A program made the position numbers and the translations under genes. Source: Leadbettera azotonutricia ZAS-9 (GTDB lineage Bacteria > Spirochaetota > Spirochaetia > Treponematales > Breznakiellaceae). From it: a stretch of DNA of 64,000 nt. The notes under the pieces are model-generated. The model was not told where the DNA came from, searched no databases, and worked only from the letters and a program-made list of their open reading frames with translations. Shown in pieces: positions 44,761 through 53,571 of this stretch. Location: contig NC_015577.1 of assembly GCF_000214355.1 (NCBI RefSeq), positions 3,649,389-3,713,388 of the forward strand, in the 5' to 3' direction. The number at the start of each line of letters is the position of its first letter. Position 1 is the first letter of the stretch.

Positions 44761-47187
44761 TTAGGAAATCCTTGTTAAAGAAACGCAAAGGTTATTTATC
44801 GTTGCGATAACTTCTGATGATGATACTTCTGTTTTATAACGTATATCCCCATTATTTATGTCCTCCCTGAAATTGCATTGCATTAAGCCGTCAACAATAG
44901 GCTGCAAATAAGTTTTCTTTATAGATGTCTTATCAGTAAATAATAACAAGTACTGATTATCAACAAAACAAATATCAAGTTGATATGCAATAGTATTGCA
45001 TACCCATTCCAAATAGGCCCGTGGAGGATCACTCACATCATCACTTGCAACTTCATAATATTTCAAATTACTAAACGGTTTAAAACTGTTTTCTCCGTAT
45101 TTCAAAAATAACGAATATGTATAAAGCTCTACATGATTACCGCTCATTCGCTCGCCTTTTAAAAGTACGAAACCCTGTTTTGAGTTCTTGCGGACATACC
45201 TATCAGCACTTTCCAAATAATTAAATAAGTCACTTTGATTTATAAACTGTGAACGCCAATCGGTAATAGCCGATTCCTTTTTTTCCAATTCTACTATTTC
45301 TATAAGTGATTGCTCAATATTTTCAGCTTTTATTTTTTCAAATATGGATTTGATAATCCCTGAACTCATATTGGAACGATCTCTTTTTAAGAATCGTTTC
45401 CAGCTTATATCGCGCTGAATGTTCCTAAGAAAGCTTTGATTAGAACTTCTTTCAAGAAGATAATCACCATGAACTAATAACGCACACTCCCACACATGAT
45501 TAGCAAATTCTCTTACCCCATTGTCATCAAACACAGCCTTTGCCTTTTTACTGTATATGCTAAACTTTTCACGATATTCTTTGTCATCTTCTGCCGACCA
45601 TTTACAATTATTGTTTTTATTGTAATAACTTTCAATATCACTCAGAAAAAACAAGAATCCAATTTGTCCATCAAAATATTTTTGCTCCTCTACATCCTGA
45701 ATCTGTTTTTTCCAATCATTATTTTCCCGAAGCAGCAAACATGCTTTTATTTGCTCTTCAAGAAATTGAACATTATCAAAACCTAAGAAATCTTTGCCTG
45801 AAATATTGCTAATATGGATAAGTATACTCGTACCCTTTGCCGGTAATAACTGTTTAACTGCGTTGATAGAACGAAGATAATCTTCTTCTCTGTTATAATT
45901 TGTATATTTTGCCAAATTTCTTATTATACGCATCCAATGCTTTAATTCATTGGGATCAATATTTCCTTTTCTAGAAATCAAATACTGGCAATATGCAAAA
46001 AACACTATTCTATTTTCATAACCAGCACCGTCAAATTTATTGTTAATTATTCTATCAAAATATTCTAATTCGTCATAAAAATAAAATGCCTGAGGAATAT
46101 ATGTTTTTACTGTTTTATTCCCATTTTTTAGCATATCCAAAATAGCAATAAGGTCAAGAATAAATTGTCCATCAAGACAACTATATTTTTCACATTGGCT
46201 AAAAGACATACCGGATTCCTGAAACAAAGATTTTGGAAAATTGTCTTTTTCCGCGCGATGATTCACAATAAGAATTTTAAGAAAATTCATAAGCAAGTGA
46301 TCAATATCAGAATTTTCTGATGGCCTGTGTGCCCAAAACAAATTAGTCCAATCAGTATCAATCATTTTATCAAAATATTTATGTACCAGGACATCTTCAT
46401 TTACAATTGTATACCTATCAGACAAATTTAATTTTTCAATATATTGTTCCAATTTTGCCTTAAAATTTTCAAACTCGGTCAACGGTTTACCGCGTGCATT
46501 CATTTTTATATATAAATCATCAGTTAATCCATAATCATTAAGTTCAAGAAATTGAAAAGTTATTATTTCTTTATTTGGATCTGCCAATCGTTTATAATAA
46601 TTCACGGCGTCATTAAATTTAAGATGAATACTATCAAGCATATTAAGCATTGATTGTATTGTCGGATCAGTATCCCATGTTGAAAAATACCAAGAACTTT
46701 TCGTAATAATGTTAGATATTGTTTTTGATTTAAGATTATTCATTTTTGATATATCTATATCTTTAGACAGCAAAGTATCACAAAATTCCCGCGAGCTTGT
46801 CCGTGTCTCATAGGAAAACTTTGATTTTGGTTTATCGCTTTCGGTATATACAAAATCTTCTCTTAATTCCTTAATTTTGCAATCTTTAATTGCTAGATAC
46901 CAATGCAACAAAAACAGTGTCGTTAATCTTTGCTGTCCATCAAGGGGGATAAAAACCGGGCGTTTGTTCACCGTTGTAAGATTTCCATATACAAAATCAA
47001 GGTCATGGTTTGCCGTATCGGCATCTAAATATTCACGTAATTTATCAAGAAAAGCATCACGTTTTTCAACTTCGCTTACACGGCCTTGTGCGTAATCTCT
47101 CTGTATAATAGGAATAACAATGTCATATTTCCTGATTACTTTCAAAAAAGTTAATCGGCTTTCGGATAATTTTCCTGTTTCACACAT
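44761..47187 (-). CDS. DUF262-domain protein, GmrSD-like (second gene of pair)
   Basis: An 808-residue AT-rich gene. The N-terminal DUF262 (ParB/Srx-like) part shows IPIIQRDYAQGRVSEVEKRD, then VFIPLDGQQRLTTLFLLHW, with the DGQQRLTT nucleotide-handling motif. ELNDYGLTDDLYIKMNARGK and FENFKAKLEQ are typical of the family. The long C-terminal part has no clear HNH/DUF1524 motif that I can see. It is coupled to the upstream DUF262 gene by a TAATG overlap. Paired DUF262 proteins occur in GmrSD-like modification-dependent restriction and other anti-phage loci; the defence role is inferred. Confidence 0.75.
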   Translation of the reverse strand: MCETGKLSESRLTFLKVIRKYDIVIPIIQRDYAQGRVSEVEKRDAFLDKLREYLDADTANHDLDFVYGNLTTVNKRPVFIPLDGQQRLTTLFLLHWYLAIKDCKIKELREDFVYTESDKPKSKFSYETRTSSREFCDTLLSKDIDISKMNNLKSKTISNIITKSSWYFSTWDTDPTIQSMLNMLDSIHLKFNDAVNYYKRLADPNKEIITFQFLELNDYGLTDDLYIKMNARGKPLTEFENFKAKLEQYIEKLNLSDRYTIVNEDVLVHKYFDKMIDTDWTNLFWAHRPSENSDIDHLLMNFLKILIVNHRAEKDNFPKSLFQESGMSFSQCEKYSCLDGQFILDLIAILDMLKNGNKTVKTYIPQAFYFYDELEYFDRIINNKFDGAGYENRIVFFAYCQYLISRKGNIDPNELKHWMRIIRNLAKYTNYNREEDYLRSINAVKQLLPAKGTSILIHISNISGKDFLGFDNVQFLEEQIKACLLLRENNDWKKQIQDVEEQKYFDGQIGFLFFLSDIESYYNKNNNCKWSAEDDKEYREKFSIYSKKAKAVFDDNGVREFANHVWECALLVHGDYLLERSSNQSFLRNIQRDISWKRFLKRDRSNMSSGIIKSIFEKIKAENIEQSLIEIVELEKKESAITDWRSQFINQSDLFNYLESADRYVRKNSKQGFVLLKGERMSGNHVELYTYSLFLKYGENSFKPFSNLKYYEVASDDVSDPPRAYLEWVCNTIAYQLDICFVDNQYLLLFTDKTSIKKTYLQPIVDGLMQCNFREDINNGDIRYKTEVSSSEVIATINNLCVSLTRIS

Positions 47188-48188
47188 TATCTATTCTCCT
47201 CTAAATCGTCAATTAGTGTATCAAGTTTTAATAAAGTTGTTTTTATTGCATTAAAATATGCATCCGCATCACTAGGATTCCAGTACATCATTTCGGTAAA
47301 ACGCTTGCTATATGCTTTCATAAAGACATTCTTTGTACATAAAGGTATAAACTGTCCGGATTTTTCATTTTTTAATATAATAGAACGTTTTACCGGAAAA
47401 ATCCAGTTTTTATAAGCTCTGTTTGTACTGGCATCTAACAGTGCTAAATTGGAAATATAATGCGTACCTATTGGCCTGTCTTCTTTAAAAATTTTTTGAA
47501 TCCGGTAAAAAACATCTTGAATTTTTGAATTCTTGTCATCTTTACTAATTTTGAATAATTCGGTAAAGATATAATCAAGCGATTCTTTTTCAATCTGTAG
47601 GTCAGCAAAATCATCTTTATTTTTTGGGTTATTTCCCGAATTGACTTCATTATAATATAATTGCTGCTGTTCCAGTTCTTCACAGCCCGTAAAATATTCC
47701 AAAATAGCATTTGCCCATTTAATGGATTCCTGCCCTTTTTTGACTATTTTATCTGTCTGTGAATAAATATGTTCAACGTCAAAGTCTTGAGTTTTATATG
47801 AATTAAACGGAAACCGCATATCTTGTTTTTGAGATGTAATGATTGTTAAAATATTAAATAATAATAATGTTGGTTTTAGATCAGGATCATTATAGTTTAG
47901 CGTTTCAATATTTTTATAACTGGGGTATCTTTCTTTTATACGCTCAACAAGATAAAATTTAAAATCATATTTCGTTTCATGTTTGTCACTTTCACTGATA
48001 ATTACACGTAATTCATTCTCTCCATTTTCTGCGGTCATAATTAAAAAACCTATTAGATGGTAAAAAAGAGAATCGTTATACCATTCTTCTAATCTTTGAA
48101 AATATTTCTTTATAATGAGCCAAAATTTATCCGTATCTGGAACACCTGTATTTTTTTCTGCTTTCTTCGAATTCTTCATAGTATTCAT
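47187..48188 (-). CDS. C-terminal half of a frameshifted DUF262/DUF1524 protein (HNH-like nuclease part)
   Basis: The 333-residue frame begins with an apparent Met only by accident; its useful coding part starts near 48155. It contains DFDVEHIYSQTDKIVKKG, the DUF1524 His-rich motif, and IGTHYISNLALLDASTNRAY, the second conserved segment of the HNH-like domain. Read after the frame at 48127-49023 it completes a normal DUF262-DUF1524 protein of about 610 residues. The join is at a run of seven T (48151-48157), where one base fewer would restore the frame. Either the gene is broken, the run is a sequencing error, or slippage rescues it. Confidence 0.75.
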   Translation of the reverse strand: MNTMKNSKKAEKNTGVPDTDKFWLIIKKYFQRLEEWYNDSLFYHLIGFLIMTAENGENELRVIISESDKHETKYDFKFYLVERIKERYPSYKNIETLNYNDPDLKPTLLLFNILTIITSQKQDMRFPFNSYKTQDFDVEHIYSQTDKIVKKGQESIKWANAILEYFTGCEELEQQQLYYNEVNSGNNPKNKDDFADLQIEKESLDYIFTELFKISKDDKNSKIQDVFYRIQKIFKEDRPIGTHYISNLALLDASTNRAYKNWIFPVKRSIILKNEKSGQFIPLCTKNVFMKAYSKRFTEMMYWNPSDADAYFNAIKTTLLKLDTLIDDLEENR

Positions 48189-49023
48189 TGAAAGTGTAAT
48201 ATGTCTCTTGATCAGATGGTTTTTCTTTTATTAAATCAAAAATATATTCAATGTGCGTCGCATATTTTGGCTTGCCTTTTTCAGCTTCTGACGAGTTATA
48301 GATAAAATACCAAAAGGAATCTTCTTGTAATTTCTTTTCAATTTGATCCCACTCAGATGCTATCTGCAATTGTTTTAAATAGAATGCATCAGTGGCAATA
48401 TTTTCCTCTTTCCATTTTCTTAAAAATAACGCTCTAATCAATTCTGCATTGGTGAGAGATATTTTTCCAATATTTAATCTTGTAAATATCTCATAAGCAT
48501 CTTCCTTATTATCAACTTCATAAAATATAACTCTTGTCTTATCTATAAGTTTTAGCATTAGCTTTGTTTCAAAAGTTTTATCTTTATTAAATTTTTCAAA
48601 CCATTCTTTAATAGTCTTGTCAGCATTATAGATATGTTTAAAATCTATATATTTATTAGAATCTGCTTCATTAATATTTCTTAAAAATGTTTCACTGTCT
48701 TCTCGCGTGGCGTAAGCTAAATCTTTTATGTTTTGCCCTTTTAGCGGTGCCTCAAGATTTTTTAGTATAAGAAATATAGTAGTTAATCTTTGTTGCCCGT
48801 CTATTACTTCATACCAATCTTTTTTTGGCTCTTCATTGCGTTTCTTTACTACAATCGGCTGCAAGCAATAAAATGATTCTTCCTTTTGGGGATTGAATTC
48901 CCATATATCCTTAAGCAATGAAAGAACTTGTGTTTCAGTCCATCTATAACCACGTTGATAGTGTGGAATGAAAAATTGATACTCCATCAAATCATTGATA
49001 GGCATTGGTTCCAAATGTGTCAT
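48127..49023 (-). CDS. N-terminal half of a frameshifted DUF262/DUF1524 protein
   Basis: The 298-residue frame carries the DUF262 domain: EYQFFIPHYQRGYRWTETQV, then WYEVIDGQQRLTTIFLIL with the DGQQRLTT motif, and EIFTRLNIGKISLTNAELIR. It stops shortly after YYEEFEESRKK because of an extra base in the A7 (minus strand) run at 48151-48157; the natural continuation NTGVPDTDKFWLIIKKY is in the next frame. GAGGAG lies 9 bases before ATG 49023. It is the first gene of the two-gene DUF262 unit and is divergent from the homocysteine methyltransferase gene. Composition is clearly AT-richer than either neighbour, suggesting transfer. Confidence 0.75.
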   Translation of the reverse strand: MTHLEPMPINDLMEYQFFIPHYQRGYRWTETQVLSLLKDIWEFNPQKEESFYCLQPIVVKKRNEEPKKDWYEVIDGQQRLTTIFLILKNLEAPLKGQNIKDLAYATREDSETFLRNINEADSNKYIDFKHIYNADKTIKEWFEKFNKDKTFETKLMLKLIDKTRVIFYEVDNKEDAYEIFTRLNIGKISLTNAELIRALFLRKWKEENIATDAFYLKQLQIASEWDQIEKKLQEDSFWYFIYNSSEAEKGKPKYATHIEYIFDLIKEKPSDQETYYTFNEYYEEFEESRKKYRCSRYG

Positions 49024-51365: not shown

Positions 51366-53063
51366 ATGAAATATATGCCTGCTGCCATTGTTATGTTCTG
51401 TATTCATTTTTTAATTTTGGTTTCCTGCGCAGGCGGTTCTGCTGTTAACCAGAAGGCAGGAAAGCAGGAAAATTTGGAGTCTGCCATAAGCGATTTTTCA
51501 AAAGGTACAAATCTTGCAAGCTGGTTTCAGCAGGTGGATTCGGCGCATAGTATTCCCTTCGGCAGGTTCAGCGAAGCTGATTTTAAAAATTTTAAAGCCC
51601 TTGGAATCAATATCATAAGGCTGCCCATACAATTCAGCAGCATGGCAGGGCCGGATTATATTGTCGATCCCCTGCTTTTCGATCTCCTCGATCAAGCTGT
51701 AGACTGGGCCGAGCGATACAAAATCTACATCATCCTGGACAACCATTCCTCGGACGGATCAAACGGTCCCACCGCCGATGCCATCGATGCTTTTCTCGTT
51801 CCGCTTTGGGCGCAAATCGCAGATCATTATAAAAACCGCAGCCAATTCATCCTTTATGAAATCCTCAATGAACCTTACGGCATTTCTGCCGAGGCATGGG
51901 GCCTAGCCCAGGGCAAAGCTATCGAAGCAATACGACAGAAGGATAAGACCCACACGATCATTGTCGGCGGGAACGAATGGAATTCCATTTGGGCTTTGGA
52001 AAACCTTCCTATTTATAATGACAAAAATCTTTTATATACCTTCCATTTTTACGATCCCCACATTTTCACCCACCAGGGAGCTGACTGGGGCGACCCGCCC
52101 TTGCTGACCAATCTAGAGGGGCTTCCTTTTCCCGCCTCGGCCCACAGCATCCCGGCCCTGCCCCCCGATTTAAAAGGAACTGCGGTCGAAGAGGATTACA
52201 AAAAATATGCCCGCCTTGCGGACCCCGCATCCCTTGCCGAGACCCTGGATCGGGCTGTGCAATTTTCAGCTTCCCGAGGGGGAGTTCCCCTTTTCTGCGG
52301 TGAATTCGGCGTGAAGATAGGTTCATGTCTGCCGGAAGACAGGCTGCGCTGGTACAAAACAGTGGCAAAACTTTTAGCGGAACGCAGTATTGCCTGGGCT
52401 AATTGGGATTACAATACCAATTTTGGTTTATTCAACACTGAAAAAGGCGGCAATATCAATTCTGACCTTGATATTGAAATTGCGTCGGCCCTCGGCTTTA
52501 CGGCGCCTGCCCAGCACCCTATAGAAAAAATCAAGAATAATTTTATTGTCTACGAAGATTATACCGGCCAGGATGTCGGAATAAACCATTGGGATCAAAG
52601 CGTCCTTGATCTGTATAACAAAGAAGCGGCCGAAGGAAAATATGCGGTTTCCTGGAGCAAAATCAGCACATACAGCGAATTTTCTTTCAATTTGAGCCCT
52701 GAAATCGATTGGGAGTACTTGACAAGCCAGGGCTATGCCCTGGAATTCAAAGCCCGTACGAATAAAACTGCGGCCTTCGATGTTCAATTAATCCGCTACG
52801 AAAACGCCGTCAGCGTTCCCTGGCGTATGCGTTTTTCCATCAACAAAACAAACCTTCCCCCCGACAATCAATGGCACACCATTTATATTCCCTTAAAGGA
52901 AATGAAAGAACAAGGCGCATGGATCAACAAAACATCAGAATGGCGCGACCCCAAGGGTCTTTTTGCCTGGGACAATATTGAACGCCTTGCATTCCAGGCA
53001 GAGAGCGAGCTTCCGGGCTGCATCATTTATTTTGACAGCATTAAGATAATCGGGGATCATTAA
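51366..53063 (+). CDS. GH5 endoglucanase-type lipoprotein with C-terminal carbohydrate-binding-like domain
   Basis: A 565-residue secreted enzyme. Lipoprotein signal CIHFLILVSCAGG. GH5 barrel: FKNFKALGINIIRLPIQF, YIILDNHSS, the acid/base Glu about 169 in YEILNEPYG and the nucleophile Glu about 313 in PLFCGEFGVK. After residue about 385 a beta-rich domain (VYEDYTGQDVGINHWDQS, to PGCIIYFDSIKIIGDH) resembles CBM11/CBM-like jelly rolls. It probably hydrolyses beta-glucans or mannans at the cell surface, in line with a lignocellulose-feeding host gut. Its end overlaps the vsr gene tail-to-tail by 23 bases. Confidence 0.9.
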   Translation: MKYMPAAIVMFCIHFLILVSCAGGSAVNQKAGKQENLESAISDFSKGTNLASWFQQVDSAHSIPFGRFSEADFKNFKALGINIIRLPIQFSSMAGPDYIVDPLLFDLLDQAVDWAERYKIYIILDNHSSDGSNGPTADAIDAFLVPLWAQIADHYKNRSQFILYEILNEPYGISAEAWGLAQGKAIEAIRQKDKTHTIIVGGNEWNSIWALENLPIYNDKNLLYTFHFYDPHIFTHQGADWGDPPLLTNLEGLPFPASAHSIPALPPDLKGTAVEEDYKKYARLADPASLAETLDRAVQFSASRGGVPLFCGEFGVKIGSCLPEDRLRWYKTVAKLLAERSIAWANWDYNTNFGLFNTEKGGNINSDLDIEIASALGFTAPAQHPIEKIKNNFIVYEDYTGQDVGINHWDQSVLDLYNKEAAEGKYAVSWSKISTYSEFSFNLSPEIDWEYLTSQGYALEFKARTNKTAAFDVQLIRYENAVSVPWRMRFSINKTNLPPDNQWHTIYIPLKEMKEQGAWINKTSEWRDPKGLFAWDNIERLAFQAESELPGCIIYFDSIKIIGDH

Positions 53064-53490
53064 ATCCGCTCGATTCGCTTTGGCATTTTATAATGTGTTC
53101 TTTGACTTCCCACACGCAGGCTGCCGTGTCCTTTTTTATCTCTTCACCCCAAAAATGCAATACTATCCATCCAAGGCGGAACAATTCTTGTTCTTTTTTA
53201 TTGTCCCTGGCCATATTATTTTCTATTTTTGGAATCCAGTATTCCTTGTTATTTTTAATCTTGCTTTTCTGTTTTTGCCAATTTTTGCCATGCCAAAATT
53301 CCCCATCACAGAATATTGCTATCTTGTAACGGGTAATCGCGATATCCGGCTTCCCGGGAAGGGCAGGATAATTTTTCCTGTACCTGATTCCTTCATGCCA
53401 TAATGCCTTTCTAAACAGCAATTCAATATCCGTGTCTTTGTTTTTTATGCGGCTCATCGTCCTATGGCGTGTTTCGCTGACATTATTCAT
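53041..53490 (-). CDS. vsr: Very short patch repair endonuclease (Vsr)
   Basis: Nicks T:G mismatches that arise by deamination of 5-methylcytosine. Signatures are RHRTMSRIKNKDTDIELLFR, LPGKPDIAI (catalytic Asp region), IAIFCDGEFWHGKNW and LGWIVLHFWGEEI. Starting at ATG 53490 gives 149 residues, matching the family; the frame can be extended to TTG 53544. The usual partner, a cytosine methyltransferase, is not in the window. The gene is AT-rich and may be acquired. Confidence 0.88.
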   Translation of the reverse strand: MNNVSETRHRTMSRIKNKDTDIELLFRKALWHEGIRYRKNYPALPGKPDIAITRYKIAIFCDGEFWHGKNWQKQKSKIKNNKEYWIPKIENNMARDNKKEQELFRLGWIVLHFWGEEIKKDTAACVWEVKEHIIKCQSESSGFNDPRLS

Positions 53491-53571
53491 GTTTTGATAA
53501 AGGATAATCCCAGGGCGGATCTTAGTCAACAGTTCCCTTGACAAATGGAAACGGATAAATTATAAAGAGCA

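Follow-up and report, generated by a model that had tools for sequence, protein, structure and literature searches.

Organization of the locus

The locus occupies positions 44761 to 49023 of the window, i.e. of the whole stretch of 64,000 nucleotides analyzed here, which is part of the complete genome (3,855,671 bases) of the spirochaete Leadbettera azotonutricia ZAS-9. It harbors two genes on the reverse strand, designated A and B, the first of which is distributed over two open reading frames (ORFs). The following features can be distinguished:

48127-49023, reverse strand: gene A N-terminal ORF, 298 aa; DUF262/GmrSD_N (Pfam PF03235, E = 3.2e-35), GrwA-like sensor/NTPase half
47187-48188, reverse strand: gene A C-terminal ORF, 333 aa; helical linker and DUF1524 His-Me/HNH nuclease (GmrSD_C, PF07510, E = 2e-05)
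48127-48193, reverse strand: zone of the reading-frame change in gene A, from the tblastn frame switch and the ORF coordinates
44761-47187, reverse strand: gene B, 808 aa; DUF262 (PF03235, E = 8.4e-23), SspE/DndI/BrxU-like helical middle and C-terminal alpha/beta domain; GrwB-like
44764-45270, reverse strand: C-terminal alpha/beta domain of gene B, residues 640-808 (domain model, pLDDT 90.5)

The stop codon of gene A and the start codon of gene B share base 47187 in a TAATG motif (1-base overlap), exactly the coupling that the first-pass annotation of this DNA had described. Its observation of an AT-rich segment unlike both neighbors likewise stands, with a GC content of 0.30-0.33 at 45-49 kb versus 0.58-0.59 to the left (41-44 kb) and 0.47-0.54 to the right (49-53 kb), that is, approximately 30% compared to approximately 47-59% around it. 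The pair is isolated between housekeeping genes, and no type I restriction-modification (R-M) gene adjoins it. Neither PADLOC 2.0.0 nor NCBIfam returned a model covering the whole A-B pair. At a distance of about 4 kb, the window carries a vsr mismatch endonuclease gene (53041-53544, reverse strand; TIGR00632, E = 2.4e-40). This is an orphan Vsr, as no C5-cytosine methylase (PF00145) was found in the genome.

Gene A: a GmrSD-like nuclease with a broken frame

The first ORF of gene A displays the DUF262 motifs QR (PHYQRGYRW), DGQQR (with R79) and FxRLN (FTRLN), and the second keeps the nuclease residues H140, N247 and N256 (numbering of the 333-aa ORF). The spacing from H to the first N is thus +107, that between the two N is +9, and that from H to the last N is +116. 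Within the family, an N-N spacing of 9 is found in 80 of 85 complete A proteins, and the H-N spacing ranges from 68 to 124 in all measurable proteins but one outlier (199).

When intact relatives are compared to gene A by tblastn, the match is continuous, with a single change of frame between 48193 and approximately 48173. The two ORFs overlap out of frame by 62 bases (48127-48188), and little or no coding sequence has apparently been lost. The break sits in the helical linker between DUF262 and DUF1524. The inner ATG at 48188 lacks a Shine-Dalgarno sequence, whereas the starts at 49023 (AGAGGAG upstream) and 47187 (GAGGAG) possess one. Judged from these sequence features, the two ORFs are one disrupted gene. 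The earlier description of one gene for DUF262 plus a DUF1524-like HNH domain hence holds for the domains, which are recognized by PF03235 and PF07510, but not for a single intact frame, given the two overlapping ORFs; its wording of a "repaired" locus shows that the break had already been noticed. As a consequence of the frame change, no full-length nuclease protein is expected barring a sequencing error or a bypass; if the frameshift is genuine and not a sequencing artefact, this copy is probably non-functional.

Other spirochaete copies are broken, too (L017, L020, L021, L023, L026 and L027), several by in-frame stops in A and sometimes in both genes, which fits a recurrent decay of a defence gene. 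Phase variation via a homopolymer was considered as well. It was not adopted, since the shift cannot be pinned to a particular base and in-frame stops account for several of the other broken spirochaete copies.

Gene B: a DUF262 protein without nuclease

The second gene had been described as a longer DUF262 protein lacking a nuclease motif, and this is borne out by its length and domain match (808 aa, E = 8.4e-23) as well as by the alignment of its family, in which there is no HNH and no invariant or near-invariant His outside DUF262. The NTPase motifs of DUF262, in contrast, are kept throughout the B family: QR and DGQQR occur in 115 of 115 proteins and [YFW]xxxN in 112 of 115. The arginine of DGQQR is R87 in the window. 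Outside DUF262, residues E478, K481, E500 and G507 of B (44764-47187, reverse strand) form an invariant or near-invariant charged cluster in the helical middle.

A sequence search of the PDB returned no structure for the C-terminal half of gene A or for B, only weak matches to DUF262 proteins. The AlphaFold model of B (mean pLDDT 89.8) was compared to known folds. Its residues 1-507 resemble SspE and DndI (9jfl) with Z scores of 13.8-13.9, and BrxU more weakly (Z 4.9). The shared fold of the first approximately 500 residues suggests that B is a GmrSD-type protein devoid of a nuclease. The C-terminal domain, folded alone, gives an alpha/beta unit (pLDDT 90.5). It is well covered in only 32 of 67 aligned relatives and hence appears to be a variable module. 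A Foldseek search of this domain against the PDB and viral models provided no match below E 0.001. With VIA-align, the best Z score was 6.7, to an unrelated reductase, followed by the C-terminal "double wing" of T4 MotA (6.3-6.5) and type III secretion chaperones (6.2). A MotA-like fold was not assigned in view of these low scores, which are tied with those of the chaperones and the unrelated reductase. The double wing of T4 MotA leaves enough space for glucosylated hydroxymethylcytosine in the major groove (PMC6755090). Conceivably, the C-terminal domain of B could be a MotA-like double-wing reader that contacts hypermodified DNA with A acting as the cutter, which would account for the need for a second protein; this proposal is rather unlikely.

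A and B as one co-inherited unit

Scoring the ORFs at every locus against A and B profiles gave 122 loci with a good B match, including the window copy. In 121 of them, stemming from many phyla, A immediately precedes B on the same strand; the remaining one begins at a contig end. The distance between the genes has a median of -4 and amounts to ≤30 nt in 115 loci. Another spirochaete genome contains a natural in-frame A-B fusion (L029, 637-4404, reverse strand; A part 41-467, B part 498-1210). The reverse search from A across the phylum led to the same loci, with A matches lacking B being weak or situated at contig ends (G067, G159). Moreover, the distances among A and among B proteins co-vary, with a Mantel r of 0.80 over 83 pairs, for which the two pieces of the window A were joined by X; the permutation maximum was 0.15, and none of 2000 permutations reached the observed value. 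Adjacency, fusion, reverse search and distance correlation together argue that A and B are one co-inherited unit. The search for the gene pair in other genomes, as suggested by the first-pass annotation, thus revealed the opposite of a rare co-occurrence.

The window A and B resemble their relatives to about the same degree. In relatives with a complete A, this protein is a single chain in nearly every locus. One spirochaete genome carries two tandem A-B pairs within approximately 9 kb (G347, contig C4, 34847-43888).

Distribution and origin

Relatives of B occur in 33 of 393 genomes of the phylum. Among GTDB genomes, of which the best 80 loci were kept, they were found in Bacteroidota, Bacillota, Pseudomonadota and others. 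A further 17 viral contigs and 17 plasmid records contain relatives; those on plasmids are all below 60% identity, and a nucleotide search of plasmids yielded short patches only. No B relative was found in phage records. The nearest relatives of the window B share approximately 40% identity with it.

Within the Breznakiellaceae, the family of the window's host, no other sampled genome contains A or B, yet the genes flanking the pair occur family-wide (in 30 of 40 and 35 of 40 genomes, respectively). In the B tree, sequences from Bacteroidota, Bacillota, Pseudomonadota and others are intermingled, and the window copy does not join other spirochaetes. Together with the deviating composition, these observations point to a horizontal gain of the pair. 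In an empty-site comparison, the nearest relatives had the two flanking genes apart or on different contigs. Of 110 proteins encoded beside the pair in its relatives, those with a named family most often belong to type I R-M systems (HsdS 10, HsdR 9, N6 methylase 6), which matches the location of TgvAB and RloF within type I R-M loci (PMC11411939).

Likeness to GrwAB and proposed mechanism

To our knowledge, experimental knowledge of pairs of this kind comes from V. cholerae only. GrwAB from the WASA lineage is a two-gene GmrSD-like system for modification-dependent restriction that was tested experimentally (PMC12137116, 2025). GrwA consists of DUF262, a linker and DUF1524, with R81, H431, N521 and N530 being needed, while GrwB comprises DUF262, in which R86 is needed, and, C-terminal to it, domains of unknown function. 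Defence depends on both genes, neither of which is active alone, and is abolished by the R86A exchange in GrwB. Its targets are phages of the Tevenvirinae and Queuovirinae, and mutations that allow escape affect the modification enzyme DpdA (PMC12137116).

The window locus has the gene order of GrwAB, with two neighboring genes of which the first encodes DUF262, a linker and DUF1524, and the second a long DUF262 protein with extra C-terminal domains. The functional residues occupy similar positions: the arginine is residue 81 in GrwA and 79 in the window A, residue 86 in GrwB and 87 in the window B, and the H-N-N triad is spaced at +90/+99 in GrwA versus +107/+116 in the window. In A of Mixta theicola (L067), the equivalent residues are R81, H431, N520 and N529, next to the published R81, H431, N521 and N530 of GrwA. 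The differences are that the window gene A is frameshifted and that the pair represents a different family branch in a spirochaete host, outside a VSP-II island. By architecture, motif positions and residue spacing rather than direct alignment, the window pair is assigned to the GrwAB type.

Taken together, the intact system very probably carries out modification-dependent restriction, with A and B acting as a complex and the nuclease A gated by NTP, which as a whole is the best explanation for the locus. A and B would probably form a complex, in which each DUF262 domain may bind and hydrolyze NTP and take part in the sensing of hypermodified phage DNA. NTP hydrolysis could then license the His-Me nuclease at the C-terminus of A to cut this DNA. 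B would correspond to a subunit of the SspE/BrxU type in which a different C-terminal domain has taken the place of the nuclease, and would make the pair a hetero-oligomeric counterpart of the SspE/BrxU homomer. Work by others on V. cholerae GrwAB demonstrated the need for both DUF262 domains and the HNH (PMC12137116), which may apply here as well. The complex, its substrate in the window's host and the role of the C-terminal domain of B are inferred. As no PF00145 methylase was found in the host, its own DNA lacks one modification at which an enzyme of this kind might cut, which agrees with the mechanism but is no test of it. The original suggestion of a candidate restriction or defence system is thus upheld by the protein family, the motifs, the obligate pairing and co-variation, the patchy distribution and the type I R-M neighbors of relatives.

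Alternative explanations

The break in gene A could be read in two other ways. It might mark a working split into GmrS and GmrD, i.e. two proteins as in the GmrS/GmrD first described, with B as a third subunit. Its position in the inter-domain linker would suit such an arrangement, as would the retention of all catalytic residues on both sides, but the out-of-frame overlap of the ORFs, the missing Shine-Dalgarno sequence of the second one alone among the three starts and the single-chain nature of complete A proteins in nearly every relative locus render it quite improbable. A far more serious contender, though one against which we lean slightly, is an assembly or sequencing error, in which case the living strain would possess an intact and active GrwAB-type system; this concerns the state of the copy and not its family. 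There is only a single frame change, all motifs are kept in both halves of A, B is undamaged and preceded by a good ribosome site, and neither protein has drifted further from its relatives than the other. On the other hand, other spirochaete copies are broken, several of them (among which L017, L020, L021 and L023) by in-frame stops, indicating that real decay is common in the phylum.

The role of B in the preferred restriction complex could likewise be doubted. If B were a regulator or inhibitor holding the nuclease A off in a toxin-antitoxin manner instead of a co-sensor, the tight translational coupling and strict pairing would be expected as well. This is distinctly unlikely given that B keeps all NTPase motifs of DUF262 and that the loss of defence in the V. 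cholerae GrwB R86A variant, along with the inactivity of either gene alone, shows that B is needed for activity (PMC12137116). Lastly, DUF262 and DUF1524 are also common to TgvAB and to plain single-chain GmrSD proteins, and the locus might be a TgvAB system or a single-chain GmrSD next to an unrelated DUF262 gene. Both are highly improbable: the former is opposed by the reversed gene order and the nuclease spacing detailed below, the latter by the strict pairing and co-variation of B with A.

Comparison with known systems

TgvAB, encoded on VPI-2 of V. cholerae and experimentally tested (PMC11411939, 2024), resembles the window pair in its two DUF262 proteins of unequal design, one of which carries DUF1524 and both of which are required in TgvAB. 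In TgvAB, however, the nuclease protein is encoded second rather than first, the spacing from H to the last N is +31 in the TgvB type (H571-N602) compared to +116 in the window, and the partner resembles GmrSD in its DUF262 domain only. The window's own genome also contains a TgvAB-like pair at 390.7-393.9 kb (L165, 4701-7887, forward strand), in which a 451 aa DUF262 protein is followed by a 613 aa one (EHLF...N...N). The latter shows H528-N550-N559, corresponding to 31 residues from H to the last N. Besides the two-gene GmrSD types, three single-chain DUF262 proteins are encoded in this genome, and the A profile matches neither these nor the TgvAB-like pair. The +31 spacing and the missing profile match hence separate the GrwAB and TgvAB types inside one genome. 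A DUF262/HNH protein is furthermore encoded there directly downstream of what appear from sequence to be type III R-M methylase and helicase genes (L167, 367-6985, forward strand).

SspE, DndI (9jfl), BrxU and single-chain GmrSD proteins share DUF262 with QR/DGQQR/FxxxN and a helical linker with the pair, as seen by sequence similarity for A and by fold for the first approximately 500 residues of B. In contrast to B, which lacks a nuclease and is always paired with A, they harbor the nuclease in the same chain. A stand-alone protein of the GmrSD, BrxU or SspE kind does not fit A, whose family invariably comes with B. RloF and other GmrSD proteins from type I R-M loci recall the A-B relatives, which are often flanked by hsdM/hsdS/hsdR, yet no such gene stands beside the window copy.

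The first-pass annotation regarded GmrSD-like systems with two unequal DUF262 partners as not well described, which is superseded by the experiments on TgvAB (PMC11411939, 2024) and GrwAB (PMC12137116, 2025). The two-gene kind found here is thus already known as GrwAB, and the window locus is a further, damaged copy of a widespread system, itself an ordinary and probably decayed family member. Beyond this, the GrwAB-type pair emerges as a strictly paired family across many phyla that includes a natural A-B fusion. The domain layout of B links it to SspE and BrxU, with the variable C-terminal domain as a candidate reader of modified DNA. Why such systems employ two DUF262 proteins has hence become a choice between concrete models.
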